This document shows positions 33,625 to 63,379 of a stretch of 64,000 bases of DNA, piece after piece. The position numbers and the translations under genes were made by a program. The DNA lies in NCBI RefSeq assembly GCF_016623585.1, contig NZ_JAEHFY010000014.1, positions 1 to 64,000 on the forward strand, given 5' to 3'. The stretch comes from Pedobacter segetis. Lineage in GTDB: Bacteria; Bacteroidota; Bacteroidia; Sphingobacteriales; Sphingobacteriaceae. The notes beneath the pieces were generated by a model that was not told where the DNA came from, searched no databases, and saw nothing but the letters and a program-made list of their open reading frames with translations. Every line of letters starts with the position of its first letter. The stretch's first letter is position 1.

Positions 33625-34371
33625 ATGAAAACTCCTAAGGCCAAAGCTAAATCAACCAAAAAAGAAATTAAAAAAGTTAAATCAAATATAGAGATTGATT
33701 TATCAAAAAAAATTAAAGATTTTATTGTTAGCCTAGGGCATGATGCCGAAGATATTGGGGGCGAGATTAAAAAAGCAAGTAAAATAATTACCAAAAAACT
33801 ATCTAAAAAGGCAACGGGAGTAAAGAACTCTATTAAAGATAAGTTTAAGAAAGCCGATAAAAAGGTTGTAAAAGATAAAAAAGAAGTAAAAAAGGTTGTA
33901 AAAAAAGAAATTGCAAAAGCAAAAAAAGAAGTTGATAAAACAGTTAACAAAGCCATAAAAAAAGCTGCAGAAGTAAAAAATGTAACCACAGAAAAAGTTA
34001 ATTCTGTAAGTAAATTAAACCCGGTGGCACAAACCGCCTCTAAAATAGACAAGACAACTGCGGCAAAACCAGTTGTAAAAAGAAGAGCAACTACAACCAC
34101 TAGCTCAACATCAAAAACCGTTGCTAAAAAAACACCTGCAGCAAGCACTAGAAAAACAGCCGCATCCAAGCCTACTGCTAAACCAAGAGTTTCAGAACAA
34201 AAAAAAACAATAAAAAATGATGAGGGCGTAAACCAGAATTCTCACCCAGAAACACCGCAAGCGGTAAACGGACGTAAAAAAACCAGTGCTGCACCAAAAT
34301 CTGATACAAAACCAAGCAATACCGACCTGCCCACACAAGCTGGCCCTCAGAATAAATATAAAAGAGGTTAG
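33625..34371 (+). CDS. Histone H1-like lysine/alanine-rich basic protein
   Basis: A 248-aa very basic protein. About residues 1-90 contain a somewhat more complex segment (IEIDLSKKIKDFIVSLGHDAEDIGGEI, then KKASKIITKKLSKKATG). The rest is low-complexity: KK/EVKK/VVKKEIAKAKKEV repeats, then a Pro/Thr/Ser/Ala/Lys-rich tail. This is typical of bacterial H1-like (AlgP/Hc1-type) DNA-binding proteins. It likely binds DNA or other polyanions non-specifically. It is divergent from yajQ, followed by a terminator and then ppk1; polyphosphate as partner is only a guess. Confidence 0.75.
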   Translation: MKTPKAKAKSTKKEIKKVKSNIEIDLSKKIKDFIVSLGHDAEDIGGEIKKASKIITKKLSKKATGVKNSIKDKFKKADKKVVKDKKEVKKVVKKEIAKAKKEVDKTVNKAIKKAAEVKNVTTEKVNSVSKLNPVAQTASKIDKTTAAKPVVKRRATTTTSSTSKTVAKKTPAASTRKTAASKPTAKPRVSEQKKTIKNDEGVNQNSHPETPQAVNGRKKTSAAPKSDTKPSNTDLPTQAGPQNKYKRG

Positions 34372-34430
34372 TCAGCAAGCGTTATTTAACCTTATTTTAA
34401 TAATTTATTAACAAAATAATTTGCAGTTTT

Positions 34431-34464
34431 GAATCCCGGGTGCATGCCCAGGGATTCTTTTTTA
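34431..34464 (+). terminator. Rho-independent terminator after the H1-like gene
   Basis: GAATCCC (34431-34437) pairs with GGGATTC (34451-34457), with further GGG/CCC pairing inside, followed by six T residues. It ends the H1-like transcript and lies just before the ppk1 ATG, which argues against starting ppk1 at the TTG at 34429. Confidence 0.85.
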
Positions 34465-34470
34465 TTTTAC

Positions 34471-36531
34471 ATGACTCAAGAAAAACCTCCTTTAATAAAT
34501 AGGGAAATCAGTTGGCTTTATTTTAATGCCAGGGTGTTGCAAGAGGCAACAGATAAAACTGTCCCTTTGATAGAGAGATTGAGGTTTTTAGCCATATTTT
34601 CTTCTAATTTAGATGAGTTTTATAGGGTTAGGGTTGCCACTTTAAATAGGCTGGTAACGGTGGTAAGTAAGGTAAAAGAAGAATTTGGCTACAATCCTAA
34701 AAAAATACTTAACCAAATAAAAAATATCGTTGTAAAACAAGAGAAAAAATTTAACCTCCTTTATGAAGAGATCATCAAAGAACTGGCAGAAAATAAAATA
34801 TTCATACTTAACGAGCATCAACTAAACGTAAGCAGGGGCGCTTTTGTTAAAAAATATTTTAGGGATAAGGTGCTTTCTACCATAGTCCCTATTATTATCG
34901 ACGATAAGAAACCTTTCCCAGAACTAAGGGACAGGGTTATTTATTTTTTGGTAAAACTAACCCAAAACTCTAAAAAGCAAAAAGTAAAATACGCTCTAAT
35001 AGAAATACCAGATAGTTTAAATCGTTTTTTGGTTTTGCCAGAAACCAACAACCTTAAATTTATTATTCTTTTAGATGATATTATTAGGTACAGTATAGAT
35101 GAGATTTTCTTTGTTTTTGATTACGACGAAGTAGAGGCCTATTCTATCCAAATTACAAGAGATGCAGAATTAGACCTAGATAAAACCGTGAGTGATAAGT
35201 TTATAGATGCACTTACCAAAAGCTTGCAAAAGCGCAAAAAAGGTAAACCAATGCGTTTACTTTATGATAGTGCCATGCCTATAGAAATGCTAAATACGGT
35301 AATCAATAGATTAGAGTTAAGTTCAGAAAGCCTCATTCCGGGTAATAAATACCATAATTTTAAAGATTTTATCGCTTTCCCGAATGTTGGGGATGCAGAA
35401 CTTGAATATAAAAAAATTACGCCTTTACCAATAAAAGACCTAAGCGTTTTTAAAGGTATGTTTGAGCTGATCAAGAAAAAAGATTACCTCATCAACTTAC
35501 CTTATCAATCTTTTGATTATATCATCCATTTTTTAAGGGAAGCCGCTATTGATCCTAGGGTAACAAGCATCCATATAACGCTTTACCGTTTGGCAGAAAA
35601 CTCTAGGATCGTAAACGCATTGATCAACGCTGCCCGAAACGGTAAAAAAGTAAACTGTTTGGTAGAATTAAAAGCCCGGTTTGATGAACAGGCAAACATC
35701 TTTTGGACAAACAAACTAGAAGACGAGGGGATAAACGTTAATTACGGTATCACTGGCTATAAAGTACACACCAAAATTTGTATGGTAACCCGCCTAGAAA
35801 AAGGCAAGCCGGCCTATTATGCAAATTTGGCCACAGGTAATTATAACGAGAAAACTGCCACTATTTATTGCGACCATAGCCTTTTTACGGCCGATGAGCG
35901 CATTACCAAAGAGTTAAGTAAGCTTTTCTTAAACATTGAAAAAAAGAAAATTTCTAAAGATTATGATAATCTGATTGTTTCGCCACTAGAAACGCGTAAA
36001 AGATTATTCTTTATGATTGATAGAGAAATAAAAAACGCAAAAGCAGGCAAAGATGCTTACTTGATCTTGAAAATGAATTCATTGGCAGATGAAATTACCA
36101 TTAAAAAGCTATATGAAGCAAGTAATCAAGGGGTTAAAATTAAACTGATAGTGAGAGGGATGTGTTGTTTAGTGCCAAAACAAAAAGGCTTTAGTGAAAA
36201 TATTGAAGTGTTTTCTATTGTCGATAAATTTTTAGAACACGCCAGGGTTTGGATTTTTGCCAATGGCGGAGATGAAGAGATCTATCTGCTTTCTGCCGAT
36301 TTGATGACACGAAACCTAGATCATAGAGTGGAAGTGGGTTTCCCTATTTATGATAGAGAAATAAGGGAAGAGATCAAAGAACTCATCAACATACAATTAA
36401 AGGATAATGTTAAGGCTAGGGAAATAAATGCTTTAAATACTAATAGATATAGAAAAACCAACAGCACTTTACCAGTAAGAACACAAACAGATTCTTACAA
36501 TTATTTAAAATATAAAAACAAATCATCTTGA
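34471..36531 (+). CDS. ppk1: Polyphosphate kinase 1
   Basis: A 686-aa protein with the PPK1 N-terminus LINREISWLYFNARVLQEA and IFSSNLDEFYRVRVA, two phospholipase-D-like catalytic domains, the autophosphorylated His in YKVHTKICMV with LATGNYNEKTA beside it, and a second His in FLEHARVWIFANGG. It reversibly polymerises ATP gamma-phosphate into polyphosphate. I start at ATG 34471 (MTQEKPPLINRE). The frame open from 34429 runs through a terminator hairpin. The stop codon overlaps the TTG start of ppx (TTGA). Confidence 0.96.
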   Translation: MTQEKPPLINREISWLYFNARVLQEATDKTVPLIERLRFLAIFSSNLDEFYRVRVATLNRLVTVVSKVKEEFGYNPKKILNQIKNIVVKQEKKFNLLYEEIIKELAENKIFILNEHQLNVSRGAFVKKYFRDKVLSTIVPIIIDDKKPFPELRDRVIYFLVKLTQNSKKQKVKYALIEIPDSLNRFLVLPETNNLKFIILLDDIIRYSIDEIFFVFDYDEVEAYSIQITRDAELDLDKTVSDKFIDALTKSLQKRKKGKPMRLLYDSAMPIEMLNTVINRLELSSESLIPGNKYHNFKDFIAFPNVGDAELEYKKITPLPIKDLSVFKGMFELIKKKDYLINLPYQSFDYIIHFLREAAIDPRVTSIHITLYRLAENSRIVNALINAARNGKKVNCLVELKARFDEQANIFWTNKLEDEGINVNYGITGYKVHTKICMVTRLEKGKPAYYANLATGNYNEKTATIYCDHSLFTADERITKELSKLFLNIEKKKISKDYDNLIVSPLETRKRLFFMIDREIKNAKAGKDAYLILKMNSLADEITIKKLYEASNQGVKIKLIVRGMCCLVPKQKGFSENIEVFSIVDKFLEHARVWIFANGGDEEIYLLSADLMTRNLDHRVEVGFPIYDREIREEIKELINIQLKDNVKAREINALNTNRYRKTNSTLPVRTQTDSYNYLKYKNKSS

Positions 36532-37412
36532 AATACGCAGCAATCGATATTGGCTCTAATGCAGTAAGACTTCTTATCGCTAACATTATTAACAATGACG
36601 GTGTAATTTCTTTTAAGAAAAACACATTGATTAGAGTACCGGTTAGGTTGGGCGACGATGCATTCTTAAAACAGTCTATTTCTGATAAAAAAGCAGCCGA
36701 ATTAGTTAAAACGATGGTAGCTTTTAAAAACTTGATGGAAGTTTACCAGGTAGAAGATTATATGGCTTGTGCAACATCTGCACTAAGAGAATCTAAAAAC
36801 GGCGCCGAATTGGTTAAAAAGATAAAATCTGTTGCAAACATAGATCTAGAGATAGTAGAAGGTCAAAAAGAGGCACATATCATTTATTCTAGCCATGCAG
36901 ATCAAACCTTAGAAAGAAATAAAAACTATTTATATATTGATGTTGGCGGTGGAAGTACAGAATTATCCATTTTTTCTGATGGTAAACTAAAAGCATCTAG
37001 ATCTTTTGATCTTGGTACTATCCGTATTTTAGACAATCAAGATAAAGAAGAAACTTGGGACAGTTTAAAATTCTGGTTAAGGAACGAGACCAAAAACCAC
37101 AAAGGTTTAATTGGCATTGGTACTGGGGGCAACATCAATAAACTATTCAAATTATCTGAAGAAAAGGAAGGCAAACCTTTAAGTTTTATCAAGCTAAAAA
37201 CACAATATCAATACCTAAATTCTTTCTCTTTAAAAGACAGAATCAATATTTTAGGCTTAAACCAAGATAGGGCAGATGTTATTATACCCGCTTGCGAGCT
37301 TTTTATAACCGTAATGAAATACGCCAGCATCAAACAGATTTATGTGCCAAAAGTTGGCTTGGTAGATGGCGTGATACAGGTTTTGATAGAGAAAAATTTC
37401 CCTAAAATTTAG
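36528..37412 (+). CDS. ppx: Exopolyphosphatase / Ppx-GppA phosphatase
   Basis: A 294-aa ASKHA-fold protein with the phosphate-1 motif AAIDIGSNAVRLLI at the very N-terminus and the second motif YIDVGGGSTELSIF (about residue 137), which define Ppx/GppA. It hydrolyses polyphosphate ends, or pppGpp. Translation must begin at the TTG at 36528, as DIGSN is only five residues in and no ATG precedes it. That TTG overlaps the ppk1 TGA by three bases, so the two opposing enzymes are translationally coupled. It is short relative to E. coli Ppx, with only the catalytic two-domain core. Confidence 0.92.
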   Translation: MKYAAIDIGSNAVRLLIANIINNDGVISFKKNTLIRVPVRLGDDAFLKQSISDKKAAELVKTMVAFKNLMEVYQVEDYMACATSALRESKNGAELVKKIKSVANIDLEIVEGQKEAHIIYSSHADQTLERNKNYLYIDVGGGSTELSIFSDGKLKASRSFDLGTIRILDNQDKEETWDSLKFWLRNETKNHKGLIGIGTGGNINKLFKLSEEKEGKPLSFIKLKTQYQYLNSFSLKDRINILGLNQDRADVIIPACELFITVMKYASIKQIYVPKVGLVDGVIQVLIEKNFPKI

Positions 37413-37647
37413 AAGATCGTTACGTCCCTCAATCTTGATCAAATCAATAATATTGAGATAACCATAGGTTTTTCTACCATAAGCCCTAAAAATACTTTCA
37501 CTAAAATTAGGCAAGGCTTATTGCCAAAACAATCATAGATTAAAAAAATTGCATAAATATATTTAATACATATTATAACTATTATAAATAAAAATTAATG
37601 CTTTAGTTTTTTCAGATTTGCCATTGTTAAACAACAATCAAACAAAA

Positions 37648-39138
37648 ATGGAAAAACAATCAAATTTATCCTTAGCACAAAACCTAAATCTCAAATATTT
37701 AGGTACACAACAAGAGCAAAAGAAACCTTATTTAGGTTTTTTAGGGTTTACAAATATCTTTCTATGGATATTATTTTTCGCTAGCCTTCTGCTCCTAATT
37801 TTTAAGGGCAATATCCCCAATTATGATTTTGATGGATGGTTCCGAATCAATGGTTTTACATTAATTATTTGGGCAACGGTAACTTTTTTTAGCGCTATTG
37901 TAAACACATATAGCAGAAGTTATCTGATAGGTTTTAAATATCACCAGCGTTTTGTGAAATTGAGTTTGGGTTTTACCTTCTCTGTAATGCTTTTTGTAGC
38001 CTCTAACCATGTTGCGCTGTTTATTCTTTCTTGGTTTACCATGGGCTTTTTTATGGCAAAATTGATAGGGGTTAACAAAGAATGGAAAGATGCCAAGGAA
38101 GCCGCTAAGTTCTCCCACAAATATTTTTTGATCGGTACATTATTTTTAGCTGCAGGCACATTGTTATTGGCCTTTAAATGCCAGTCGTTATTCTTGAGCG
38201 ATATTATAGGTAGGCTGGGTAATTTATCGATATTAAATTTAACGTTATCCGCCATTTTTATAATTGTTGCGGCCATTATCCAATCTGCAATTTATCCTTT
38301 TCATAGGTGGTTACTTTCTGCCATGACGGCTCCAACCCCGGCATCGGCGTTAATGCATGCGGGTTTTGTAAATGGTTCTGGAATATTGTTGGCTATATTC
38401 TCTAGCCTTATATTTCACTCGCAAACCTTTACCTTATTATTGATAATTGGGGGTTTAACGGCTATCATAGCTCAGTTTACCAAATTGTTGCAAGTGAACG
38501 TTAAACAAAAATTGGCTTGTTCTACCATTGCCCAAATGGGTTTTATGATCATGCAGTGCGGTTTGGGTTTTTTTAACGCAGCGGTTGCACACCTAATCTT
38601 ACATGGCTTTTATAAAGCTTACCTTTTTCTTTCATCTGGTGAAACAGTAGAGCACACAAAACCAAAAAACAACCAACAAATTGTGATCAAACCAATGCAA
38701 GCTGTAATAGTATTGATATATGGCTTAATTGGGGCTTGGCTCTTTGCAACATTAACAGGCAAAGGAACTGCATTAAATAGTGGGATTTTCTTAACGCTGA
38801 TAGTTGCCATAACAGTAGGACAGGTTACTTACAACATCGTAAAACAAAAAAACCTTTCGCTCATTCAAAAAGCGTTTATCCCACCAATGTTATTCTTTAT
38901 AGGCATAGGTTTATATGCCGCAATTTATAGCGGGGTAACCTATATGATGTCTGGTATGCCATTCTCTGATACACCTTTACCACTTTCATTCATCCAAATC
39001 GGTTTCGGGATTATTTTTCTTGTCGGGTTTTTTATCATGAAACTGGGCGGCTACCAAAAAGTACCTTGGTTGTACGTGAAATTGCTAAACCTATCCCAAC
39101 CTTACCATAAAACTACTTTAAACTTTAATAATAAATAG
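37648..39138 (+). CDS. dabB: DabB-type proton-conducting membrane subunit of an inorganic-carbon transporter
   Basis: A 496-aa protein with about 13 membrane helices, homologous to the NuoL/MrpA antiporter-like subunits: SAMTAPTPASALMHAGFVNGSGILL is the conserved half-channel loop, and lysines occur within helices. It is not part of a complex I operon. Its immediate partner is a DUF2309 protein (dabA, 3 nt downstream), so it is the DabB subunit of the DAB bicarbonate/CO2 pump, which couples cation flow to carbon uptake. I start at ATG 37648 rather than TTG 37618. Confidence 0.9.
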   Translation: MEKQSNLSLAQNLNLKYLGTQQEQKKPYLGFLGFTNIFLWILFFASLLLLIFKGNIPNYDFDGWFRINGFTLIIWATVTFFSAIVNTYSRSYLIGFKYHQRFVKLSLGFTFSVMLFVASNHVALFILSWFTMGFFMAKLIGVNKEWKDAKEAAKFSHKYFLIGTLFLAAGTLLLAFKCQSLFLSDIIGRLGNLSILNLTLSAIFIIVAAIIQSAIYPFHRWLLSAMTAPTPASALMHAGFVNGSGILLAIFSSLIFHSQTFTLLLIIGGLTAIIAQFTKLLQVNVKQKLACSTIAQMGFMIMQCGLGFFNAAVAHLILHGFYKAYLFLSSGETVEHTKPKNNQQIVIKPMQAVIVLIYGLIGAWLFATLTGKGTALNSGIFLTLIVAITVGQVTYNIVKQKNLSLIQKAFIPPMLFFIGIGLYAAIYSGVTYMMSGMPFSDTPLPLSFIQIGFGIIFLVGFFIMKLGGYQKVPWLYVKLLNLSQPYHKTTLNFNNK

Positions 39139-39140
39139 TT

Positions 39141-41492
39141 ATGAAAACTCTAACGATCAATAATAGCATAGAAAAAGCGGCTAGCGTAATTGGCAAAACA
39201 TGGCCTTTATATGGCTTTGTAACCTCTAATCCTTTATCGGGTTATGAAAAAAGTTCTTTTTTGGATGCCGTAAAAAACGCAAATAACTTATCAGGAGGTT
39301 CATTTTTTCCAACCGCAGCAGTTTACACCGAAGCATTGGGGAAAAAAGAAATCGATAATGATATTTTGTTGGATTTACTTGTTGAAAAAGGTTACCAACA
39401 GTCGCCAGATTTTTATTTAAACCAAATGGCTTCAGAAAAAACGGTCTCAAAAGAAAACCCCAATCGGCTTTTAGATCAATTAACCGTTAAATGGTTATCG
39501 GCATTTTTAGATGAAGGGATGGCAGAGTGGCAAATGCCTTTCAAATCTGAGGGTTTTTTTAAGGCTTGGAAAAAGATAGCCGTTTTTGATGATCAATTCA
39601 AATCTATAAAAAATATTTCGGCTGATCCAGAAGAGGCGATCAAAAACGCTTTAGCGGGTATTAACGAAGCCGGCTACGAGGAAATCTTCAAATTTCATAT
39701 CAGTTCTTTGGCGGGTTGGGTTGGTTATATCAAATACAGAACAGACACAGATTCTTTATGGCAACAAAAATACCCGATTTCTATAATGGATTATTTGGCC
39801 GTAAGATTAACCATCGCAAAACTGATTGATGCACAAATTGCACCTCTAAAAAACTATAACGATCATTTATCAGAACTCATCCAACTAAAACACATCTTTT
39901 TAAAAGCTTGGGAGATGAGTTGGCAATCAGAATTGAAGGGTATTTTAAAGGAAAATTCCATCCAACTATCCAACCAAACCAAAGAAAAAAAATTGCCAGA
40001 TGCACAAATGGTTTTTTGTATCGATACAAGATCAGAATTGATCAGAAGGCATATAGAAAGCAAAGGTAATTATGAAACCTTTGGCTTTGCGGGTTTCTTT
40101 GGTATCGCTATGGATTATGAAGATTTAGCAACTGGGATCAGTAGAAAATCTTGTCCTCCAATTGTTCCGTCTGCGTATAAAGTTTCAGAAATCCCACAGA
40201 TTGGAAAAGGAGAGGAGCTAGCAAATTATCAAAAGAAAAAAGAGGAACAAAAATTTTCTAATTACTTTTTAAACAGGCTTAAAAGTATGTTGCCTTCCGC
40301 TTTCGGTTTTGTAGAAGGTTCAGGGATTTTATACGGAGTTTCACTACTGGCAAGATCAATATTCCCCGGTAATTTATACAGGTATGAAAAGAAGAACGAA
40401 TTATCTCATGAGGGTATTTGTGAGCCATCTTTAAATCATCATCAGGTATCGTCCGATAAATTTGATAATATCCCATTAGAGCAAAAAGTAGCCATCGTAA
40501 AATCTGCTTTTGATGTGATGGGATGGAAAGAGTTTGCGCCTTTAGTAGTTTTTGCGGGGCATGGAAGCCATACCAAAAACAATGCCTTTGGATCTAGCCT
40601 AGATTGTGGTGCTTGTGCTGCAAGCCCCGGAAGACATAATGCTAGGATGTTGGCAAAGCTGGCCAATATTAAAGAAGTAAGAATGGTTTTAAAAGAGAGT
40701 TACAACATAGCGATACCAGAAAACACCTTCTTTTTAGGGGCAGAACACAACACCACAACTGATGAGATTGTATTGTTTGATAGCGAAGCACCATTATCCC
40801 TACAAAAAAACCTCGCAAAATTAAAAGCCGATTTACTATCGATACAAAGAAGTAGCTCTGCCGAAAGAAGAGGAATGCTAAACGGAGCTGTTAAATTATC
40901 TGAAAAGAAAGCAAATAACTGGGCAGAAACAAGGCCAGAATGGGGTTTAGCTAAAAATGCAGGTTTTATAATTGGGCCAAGAAACTTAAGCAAGCATGTA
41001 AACTTGGGAAGCAGATGTTTTTTACAATCTTATGATTGGAAAACAGACACAACCGGGGCTGTTTTAGAAGCCATTATGCAAGGCCCAATGGTGGTTACAC
41101 AATGGATCAACAACCATTATTATTTCTCTACGGTTGATAATGAGAAGTTTGGCGGAGGCTCTAAAATTACCCATAACGTGGTGGGCAAATTTGGTGTGGT
41201 GCAAGGCAACGGTGGCGATTTAAAAAGAGGGATCCCTTTACAATCTGTTAAAGCTTCAGATGATGAGATATATCATCAACCATTAAGGTTATCTGTGGTA
41301 ATAGAAGCACCAACAGAAAGGATCGATCAAATTTTGGAAAGAAATGCGCATATAAAATCTTTATTAGAAAACGAATGGATTTATTTGATGATCATGGATC
41401 CACAGAAGGGAGGCGAAATTACGCACTACTCAAAAAATGATAACCCTTTATCACCCATAAATGCAATAGAAAATTTAGAAACAGTATTATAA
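39141..41492 (+). CDS. dabA: DabA-type (DUF2309) carbonic-anhydrase-like subunit of an inorganic-carbon transporter
   Basis: A 783-aa cytoplasmic-side protein of the UPF0753/DUF2309 family. The zinc site is recognisable: Cys293 and Asp295 in VFCIDTRSE, His474 in VVFAGHGSHT and Cys489 in SSLDCGACA. The spacing (2, then 15 between His and last Cys) equals that recalled for C351/D353/H524/C539 of the Halothiobacillus protein. It is thought to hydrate CO2 vectorially with DabB, trapping bicarbonate inside. It starts 3 nt after dabB. In a heterotroph this probably supplies bicarbonate for carboxylases. Confidence 0.93.
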   Translation: MKTLTINNSIEKAASVIGKTWPLYGFVTSNPLSGYEKSSFLDAVKNANNLSGGSFFPTAAVYTEALGKKEIDNDILLDLLVEKGYQQSPDFYLNQMASEKTVSKENPNRLLDQLTVKWLSAFLDEGMAEWQMPFKSEGFFKAWKKIAVFDDQFKSIKNISADPEEAIKNALAGINEAGYEEIFKFHISSLAGWVGYIKYRTDTDSLWQQKYPISIMDYLAVRLTIAKLIDAQIAPLKNYNDHLSELIQLKHIFLKAWEMSWQSELKGILKENSIQLSNQTKEKKLPDAQMVFCIDTRSELIRRHIESKGNYETFGFAGFFGIAMDYEDLATGISRKSCPPIVPSAYKVSEIPQIGKGEELANYQKKKEEQKFSNYFLNRLKSMLPSAFGFVEGSGILYGVSLLARSIFPGNLYRYEKKNELSHEGICEPSLNHHQVSSDKFDNIPLEQKVAIVKSAFDVMGWKEFAPLVVFAGHGSHTKNNAFGSSLDCGACAASPGRHNARMLAKLANIKEVRMVLKESYNIAIPENTFFLGAEHNTTTDEIVLFDSEAPLSLQKNLAKLKADLLSIQRSSSAERRGMLNGAVKLSEKKANNWAETRPEWGLAKNAGFIIGPRNLSKHVNLGSRCFLQSYDWKTDTTGAVLEAIMQGPMVVTQWINNHYYFSTVDNEKFGGGSKITHNVVGKFGVVQGNGGDLKRGIPLQSVKASDDEIYHQPLRLSVVIEAPTERIDQILERNAHIKSLLENEWIYLMIMDPQKGGEITHYSKNDNPLSPINAIENLETVL

Positions 41493-41509
41493 ACTTAAAA
41501 GAAAATAAA

Positions 41510-41794
41510 ATGGAAAAATTCAAATTAATAGATGGTGTTTTTAACGCAGTTGATGCAAAAGAAATTCTTTTAACCTTAATTGATAAAAAGATCAAGTTTC
41601 ACGAGCTAAAAAGTTTCAGTAATGAGATTAAAGCGGGCAGCACAGATGGCGAATCTTTAGAAAGAGTGGAAGAATTAAAAAAAACCAGAGATCATATAAT
41701 CCTTTTCCTCAAAGATAAGCTGATAGATAACCTATCGTTCAATATTAAATCTTTTATAGAAATGGAAGAAGTTGATGTAGAAGTTATGAAATAA
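41510..41794 (+). CDS. Small conserved hypothetical protein downstream of dabA
   Basis: A 94-aa acidic soluble protein (KLIDGVFNAVDAKEILLTLI then DKKIKFHELKSFS, followed by a helical ERVEELKKTRDHIILFL) with no signal peptide or membrane helix. It begins 17 nt after dabA in the same direction, so it is likely in the dabBA operon. I recall similar small proteins in Bacteroidota but no function. It could be an accessory or regulatory factor for the pump, or an unrelated passenger. Confidence 0.75.
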   Translation: MEKFKLIDGVFNAVDAKEILLTLIDKKIKFHELKSFSNEIKAGSTDGESLERVEELKKTRDHIILFLKDKLIDNLSFNIKSFIEMEEVDVEVMK

Positions 41795-62485: not shown

Positions 62486-63379
62486 ATGGAACTTAGACAG
62501 ATTAAATACTTTCTTAAGGCAAAGGAATTATTAAATTTTACCGAAGCTGCTAAAATTTTGAATATTAGCCAAAGTACATTATCGCAGCAAATTAAGCAAC
62601 TTGAAAATGAATTGAACTTACCATTGTTTAACCGAATTGGCAAACGCATAATCCTTACAGAGGCAGGTAAAATGTTCGGTGAGTACGCTTTGCAGAGTTT
62701 AAATAAGGCGAACGAAGGATTAATGCTCTTGAAGGATCTAAACAATATTAATACAGGGAGAATTACCATTGGCATTATTTATTCCATGCGAATCTTTATT
62801 GTTAAAGCATTGGTAAAGTTTGCTGTGCAATATCCCAATATCAAAATTCAATTAGTTTTTGGTACCACCAAGGATCTTTTAGAAAAACTCAATGCGCATC
62901 ATTTTGACTTTGTGTTGGCATTTCAAGAAAAGATTAAACACTTTCATCTGAAATATCAGCCACTTCTATCTTCAACAATGGTTTTGGTAACAGCTAAAAA
63001 ATCATCATTGGCCAATAAAAGTAGTATTTCCCTGAAAGAAGTGTCTAAGCTTCCATTGGCTTTACCTTTTAGTGGTTATTCTACTACTCAATTTTTTGTG
63101 GATTCATTCAATCAAAAAAAACTAGAGCCTAATATTTGTATGGAAATAAATGACATTCATACAATATTTGAAATCGTTAAGACCGGCCATTGGCATACAA
63201 TTTTGAGTAATACTAGTGTAAACGACCCCAAAGTAACAGGTATTCCCATTGAAGGAAAGAACATGAAGCGAGACATAATGATTATTTCTCTAAAAGAAGC
63301 CTACGAAAAGAAAGCGGTAAAAAAATTCTGCGAACTTCTTACAGAAATCAAAGGACAATTTTCAGATTTCTCTTATTGA
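62486..63379 (+). CDS. LysR-family transcriptional regulator
   Basis: A 297-aa protein with the N-terminal winged HTH (MELRQIKYFLKAKELLNFTE then AAKILNISQSTLSQQIKQLE, then LPLFNRIGKRIILTEAG) and a C-terminal periplasmic-binding-like effector domain (from about residue 90; GRITIGIIYSMRIFIVKALV). It resembles the CynR/CbbR-like general class; the effector is unknown. It is divergent from the EthD gene, its likely target, as is common for LysR regulators. Confidence 0.93.
   Translation: MELRQIKYFLKAKELLNFTEAAKILNISQSTLSQQIKQLENELNLPLFNRIGKRIILTEAGKMFGEYALQSLNKANEGLMLLKDLNNINTGRITIGIIYSMRIFIVKALVKFAVQYPNIKIQLVFGTTKDLLEKLNAHHFDFVLAFQEKIKHFHLKYQPLLSSTMVLVTAKKSSLANKSSISLKEVSKLPLALPFSGYSTTQFFVDSFNQKKLEPNICMEINDIHTIFEIVKTGHWHTILSNTSVNDPKVTGIPIEGKNMKRDIMIISLKEAYEKKAVKKFCELLTEIKGQFSDFSY

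Follow-up and report, generated by a model that had tools for sequence, protein, structure and literature searches.

The 64,000-nucleotide stretch of Pedobacter segetis DNA analysed here (contig NZ_JAEHFY010000014.1, positions 1 to 64,000; hereafter the window) carries an operon that is predicted to encode a DAB-type inorganic-carbon pump. It consists of dabB, dabA and a small gene for a protein of 94 amino acids (aa), and it is preceded by a predicted binding site for a LysR-type regulator (Table 1). The three genes are on the forward strand, with gaps of 2 nt between dabB and dabA and 17 nt between dabA and the small gene, and were confirmed as a single operon. An earlier note, made from the sequence alone, had given these positions and the 17-nt gap correctly but had placed dabB and dabA 3 nt apart.

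Table 1. Genes and predicted regulatory features of the dab operon, with the unlinked regulator gene of the same genome (G000).
Feature	Position	Strand	Description
Predicted LysR operator and promoter of the dab operon	37555-37622	+	Model R1, E 8.3e-10
Operator half-site region, TAATA-N5-TATAA	37564-37578		
Operator second AT-rich half-site, TATAAATAAAAATTAATG	37583-37600		
Bacteroidetes -7-like element, CAGATTTG	37613-37620		Consensus TAnnTTTG
dabB	37648-39138	+	496 aa, NuoL-like proton-conducting membrane subunit; PF00361 E 6.8e-33
dabA	39141-41492	+	783 aa, cytoplasmic beta-carbonic-anhydrase-like zinc subunit; PF10070 E 1.7e-229, 747/747 profile positions
Small gene	41510-41794	+	94 aa, soluble, subfamily S2 of an undescribed Bacteroidota family
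lysR orthologue, putative regulator	G000:C71:142905-143825		Unlinked to the dab operon; NdhR/CmpR homology

DabA matches DabA2 of Halothiobacillus (PDB 9rd0_A) with an E-value of 1.3e-92, and the PDB chain nearest to DabB is DabB2 (9rd0_B, E 7.5e-40). With the cryo-EM structure of DAB2 (PDB 9rd0) as the reference, DabA residues C293, D295, H474 and C489, which the earlier note had named as conserved, align with DabA2 C351, D353, H524 and C539. These comprise the three zinc ligands (C293, H474 and C489) and the aspartate of the Asp-Arg dyad D295-R297 (D353-R355 in DabA2), which is kept, as is the finger glutamate E392 (E444). Residues R297, S298, A317, E392, H536, D541 and L603 are also identical to their DabA2 counterparts, and DabB is identical to DabB2 at all seven proton-path residues (S256, H260, K310, S316, H339, H343 and K347). 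The functions of the catalytic and proton-path residues of DAB2 have been described (PMC13144422). In the same alignment the DabB2 ion-pair residues I151, R182, D185 and K235 are not kept in the window DabB. Because every catalytic and proton-path residue tested is conserved, the sequence supports the assignment of dabBA as a DAB-type pump, which was also the view of the earlier note.

The intergenic regions between lysR and its neighbour share a sequence of about 68 bp, made up of AAATATTTTTTATGnTTTnCATTACAAATATAAATAAAAATTTATGAAT, some 10-12 variable bases and then A-nn-TTTGC. A model of this sequence (R1) was derived from 43 such regions, divergent from LysR and all taken from genomes other than the window genome; its only match in the window is the site upstream of dabB, where the position weight matrix scores 55 bits; the next best place in the window scores -5. 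Over the 3.84-Mb genome exactly two sites were found at E <= 0.01, the one upstream of dabB and another at G000:C71:142837-142904, in the gap that separates the lysR orthologue from a divergent Sua5 gene (PF01300 and PF03481). Identity is 74% between the two sites and 32% between their 80-bp flanks. The A-nn-TTTGC end of the operator resembles the Bacteroidetes -7 element, whose consensus is TAnnTTTG (PMC6847099). If the spacing described in Flavobacterium holds here, transcription of the dab operon would begin near 37625, and the ATG at 37648 would be the favoured start of dabB.

NdhR (also CcmR) and CmpR are LysR-type regulators of inorganic-carbon genes in cyanobacteria. The profile of the LysR family whose genes adjoin these operators finds as its best PDB match 5y2v (E 1.5e-72), with CmpR (5z49) among the next, and the window genome's own LysR protein matches 5y2v over its full length (E 4.4e-50). 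We take 5y2v, labelled 'Rubisco operon transcriptional regulator', to be NdhR, in agreement with the residue numbers in PMC13249358. Among 66 orthologues the 2-oxoglutarate interface of NdhR is kept: Y105 is present in 65, the position of S224 (S223 here) is serine in 60 and threonine in six, and that of N225 (N224 here) is asparagine in 65. In the 2-phosphoglycolate pocket of NdhR, T102, N164, R195 and T201 are kept and T101 is replaced by serine. A search of the window genome detected no RuBisCO large subunit, so that a RuBisCO product is unlikely to be the effector, and 2-oxoglutarate or another carboxylate would be preferred. Three congeners carry genes of the RuBisCO large-subunit family (PF00016; G001:C23, G009:C1 and G011:C15). 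The LysR gene in the window itself, at 62486-63379, was rejected as the dab regulator, scoring 93 bits against more than 500 for the true family.

The 94-aa open reading frame is a real gene, since a congener has a copy 67% identical in which the nucleotide differences fall mainly at third codon positions (22/14/52 by codon position), and E-values within the family reach 1e-28 across the class. The protein lacks any transmembrane segment, its hydropathy over 19 aa peaking at 1.3, for which reason a transmembrane third component like hneap_0908 was rejected, and it is only mildly acidic (20 D/E versus 16 K/R), less so than the unqualified 'acidic' of the earlier note. Pfam and NCBIfam gave nothing but chance matches. 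When genome contigs were searched with this one protein, a single relative turned up, in a Pseudopedobacter metagenome-assembled genome, and a profile built from 25 relatives detected the family in 65 of the 395 genomes of the class that were surveyed. An AlphaFold model made from 67 sequences shows a predicted beta-alpha-alpha-beta arrangement (pLDDT 91.4, pTM 0.74) that has no Foldseek match in the PDB at E <= 0.001; the top match, 4dci, was disregarded (E 0.48, TM 0.27). An SbtB/PII-like identity was rejected as well, the model having no PII or ferredoxin-like fold and the protein no Pfam match. The family falls into two subfamilies, S1 and S2, a division made by sequence motif and not by tree; they often occur in tandem.

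Maps of the surroundings of some 80 small-gene loci indicate that the small gene usually does not lie beside dabBA. It adjoins a divergent lysR, NADP-isocitrate dehydrogenase (IDH), SbtA, DUF6671 or, in a minority of cases, DabAB, and one arrangement recurs, in either of two orders: divergent LysR, optional SPFH, IDH, S1, S2, DUF6671, sometimes Sua5 and then SbtA; or LysR, S2, DabB, DabA. At least one of LysR, IDH, SbtA, DabA and DUF6671 lies within 7 kb at 77 of 78 loci, and among the 52 loci fetched after these five families had been defined, 51 also carry one. Within the genus, the small gene follows dabBA directly in the window genome and G010, and the order is dabBA, LysR, small gene in G003 and G017. 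This linkage makes a strong case that the small protein is connected to carbon supply through a shared LysR regulon, and the best reading of it is as a soluble member of that regulon rather than as a subunit of DAB alone. Between the small gene and SbtA, two loci (L068:9518-10072 and L158:8356-8916) have genes for proteins of about 185 aa and of unknown family, the former without a Pfam match.

Within the genus the operator goes together with lysR: all nine LysR-positive genomes that were searched carry R1 sites, and of four LysR-negative genomes three have no site and one a marginal partial match. In the class, sites were found in 73 of the 395 genomes, and their presence is associated with that of the small gene (odds ratio 34, p 7e-29) and of SbtA (odds ratio 13.7, p 4e-20), p-values that are indicative only because the genomes are related. 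Sites away from the small gene precede SbtA, IDH, SPFH, or an operon of DUF6671, class-III aminotransferase, Sua5 and dihydroorotase-like genes. A site lies within 8 kb of eight of the nine dabA genes of the window subtype and of one of the 72 other dabA genes. A second dabA subtype (L087-L092), for the most part with a DabB of about 620 aa, is the more frequent one in the class, and an operator or small gene lies close to it only very rarely.

On this evidence we consider it likely that heterotrophic Bacteroidota possess a low-inorganic-carbon regulon of NdhR-like type and that the dab operon serves as its uptake arm, being one of two predicted LysR targets in this genome, with the 94-aa protein as a soluble member. 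Scarcity of inorganic carbon would change the level of a metabolite that reports carbon status, for which 2-oxoglutarate is the best candidate, and LysR at the conserved operator would then alter transcription so that more DabAB is made. DabAB would use the ion-motive force to drive one-way hydration of CO2, and the bicarbonate trapped in this way could protect or supply housekeeping carboxylations. Sua5 is threonylcarbamoyl-AMP synthase, which consumes bicarbonate, and in the window genome it would be controlled together with DabAB. In other Bacteroidota the regulator family and the operator accompany SbtA, IDH, Sua5, DUF6671, the small-protein family and a dihydroorotase-like gene, and the likeliest role of the small protein would be to tune enzymes or transporters of the regulon. 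That the pump serves carbon supply in a heterotroph, as proposed in the earlier note, is supported indirectly by the failure to detect RuBisCO and by the occurrence of the same operator at the dab operon and at the bicarbonate-using Sua5. A more specific version, in which the family represents a new type of control protein for inorganic carbon, without relation to PII/SbtB, and serves IDH and two unrelated transporters, SbtA and DabAB, in heterotrophs, within a regulon whose LysR senses 2-oxoglutarate, is offered tentatively as a possibility.

Several observations weigh against this proposal. The NdhR motif ATAG-N8-CTAT was not found on reading the window operator, and we therefore call the regulator NdhR-like and not NdhR. 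The 2-phosphoglycolate pocket is only partly kept, with H130 changed to lysine and R267 to serine or threonine, so that the effector may differ from that of NdhR. The window genome also encodes a beta-carbonic anhydrase, and the DAB pump may therefore be conditional. Some small genes, in some Sphingobacteriaceae-like genomes, adjoin an ABC/HlyD/TolC set without an evident role in carbon supply, and the surveyed genomes are drafts.

The earlier note had suggested that the small protein could be an unrecognised accessory subunit of DAB. A true subunit or gate ('DabC'), possibly binding SbtA too, as cyanobacterial SbtB does, would fit the position of the gene directly behind dabA in the window genome and one congener, its presence in the dab clusters of G066, G085, G128, G200, G251 and G358, and the frequency with which the gene next to S2 encodes SbtA (11) or DabB (4); transporters of dissolved inorganic carbon (DIC) do have small soluble partners, SbtB and, as reported, SbtC (PMC13249358). 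Congener G005 has a degenerate copy directly after dabA (L074:8872-9129), a decaying gene beside a retained dabBA, which has been counted in favour of the same idea. However, the family is found away from dabBA in most cases, an outcome that the earlier note had named as a refutation: the small gene lies within 8 kb of dabA in just eight of the 65 class genomes that have it. Neither DabA nor SbtA is present in 12 of those 65, the small gene is missing from 53 of 78 genomes with DabA, and congeners G009 and G011 have dabBA with no small gene nearby. Moreover, DAB2, as solved, consists of two proteins (PMC13144422), and MpsC, which is encoded after mpsAB, is dispensable (PMC6689103). The phyletic pattern and the genes around the small gene led to the rejection of a dedicated DAB subunit as the principal explanation; the suggestion is mostly unsupported, and we regard it as improbable.

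It is unlikely, if conceivable, that the family chiefly binds and adjusts IDH, as a controller of 2-oxoglutarate level, and that where IDH is missing, as here, S2 keeps another target. IDH is near 31 of 32 S1 genes, which usually lie 8-37 nt downstream of it, and near 32 of 59 S2 genes, and 2-oxoglutarate is the corepressor of NdhR; against this, the 478-aa IDH paralogue was not found in the window genome, and the window protein is an S2 protein, a subfamily whose nearest neighbours are LysR and transporters. The lack of a known fold or domain, and the ABC/HlyD/TolC neighbours, could also be accommodated if the small gene had an unrelated housekeeping role and merely travelled with the operon, but linkage to the same LysR, operator and DIC genes at all but one of the loci, across many families and with the gene order reshuffled, makes this very unlikely. 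Finally, given an AT-rich motif and a training set made up mostly of orthologous sites, the operator likeness might reflect nothing more than AT-rich sequence or common descent from a single lysR intergenic region. That it is not a binding site seems highly improbable, since the operator also occurs away from lysR (at dabB here, at sbtA in G009, G011 and G012, and at IDH in G104 and G225), has unrelated flanks, is found once or twice per genome, and is missing or marginal in genomes that lack lysR.

Other genes deserve mention. DUF6671 (L244, L241, L080, L131 and others) recurs in LysR/SbtA/IDH clusters as well as immediately after the operator, and is predicted to be a second unknown family with a link to inorganic carbon; a literature search, mainly beyond subscription journals, found no mention of it. 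Sua5/YrdC genes likewise recur in the regulon (L208:7861-8817, L244:2662-3612, L061, L123, L130, L131 and L139). Directly upstream of the dab operon are genes for a PPK1-domain polyphosphate kinase and a Ppx/GppA-family phosphatase (34429-37412), which overlap by 4 nt and lie outside the regulon as far as tested. The open reading frame at 33625-34371 encodes a Lys/Ala-rich, histone-like, low-complexity protein of 248 aa, for which no Pfam family passed the cut-off.

DAB pumps are known, also from heterotrophs (MpsAB), as are NdhR and CmpR. A literature search that covered mainly papers outside subscription journals found no report of the Bacteroidota LysR/SbtA regulon, its operator or the small-protein family, and their novelty is therefore provisional. 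Little is known of how heterotrophs sense and respond to a shortage of CO2, and the LysR systems that have been studied well are those of autotrophs. Here one conserved operator makes it possible to predict a compact low-carbon regulon for much of the class and to name its regulator, and it draws in two uncharacterised families, the 94-aa family and DUF6671. It also suggests a possible reason for a DAB pump in a genome without detected RuBisCO, namely the provision of bicarbonate for housekeeping enzymes, and the question is open to direct testing in genetically tractable Bacteroidota.

The window operon has the same adjacent PF10070 and PF00361 gene pair as DAB2 (DabAB) of Halothiobacillus neapolitanus and MpsAB of Staphylococcus aureus; it shares with DAB2 the zinc ligands, Asp-Arg dyad, finger glutamate and proton-path residues, and with MpsAB its use by a heterotroph. 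Its DabA is shorter than that of DAB2 (783 versus 870 aa), the DabB2 ion pairs are not kept, and, unlike either system, the operon is led by a predicted LysR operator and ends with a gene for a soluble small protein. Additional genes are also found in other dab and mps clusters, namely mpsC, which is dispensable as said above, and the small transmembrane third gene of DAB1, hneap_0908. SbtB, which is PII-like, and SbtC, as described in a review, are likewise encoded beside a DIC transporter gene, but the window protein has a beta-alpha-alpha-beta model in place of the PII ferredoxin-like fold of SbtB, and gave no match in sequence or fold. The regulator has NdhR and CmpR as its best PDB homologues, and resembles them in its 2-oxoglutarate interface, in having DIC transporter genes as predicted targets (SbtA in both) and in the frequent divergence of lysR from its target. 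It differs from them in a host without detected RuBisCO, in its operator sequence, in a partly changed 2-phosphoglycolate pocket, and in a set of predicted Bacteroidota targets that includes DabAB, IDH, Sua5, DUF6671 and the new small-protein family.

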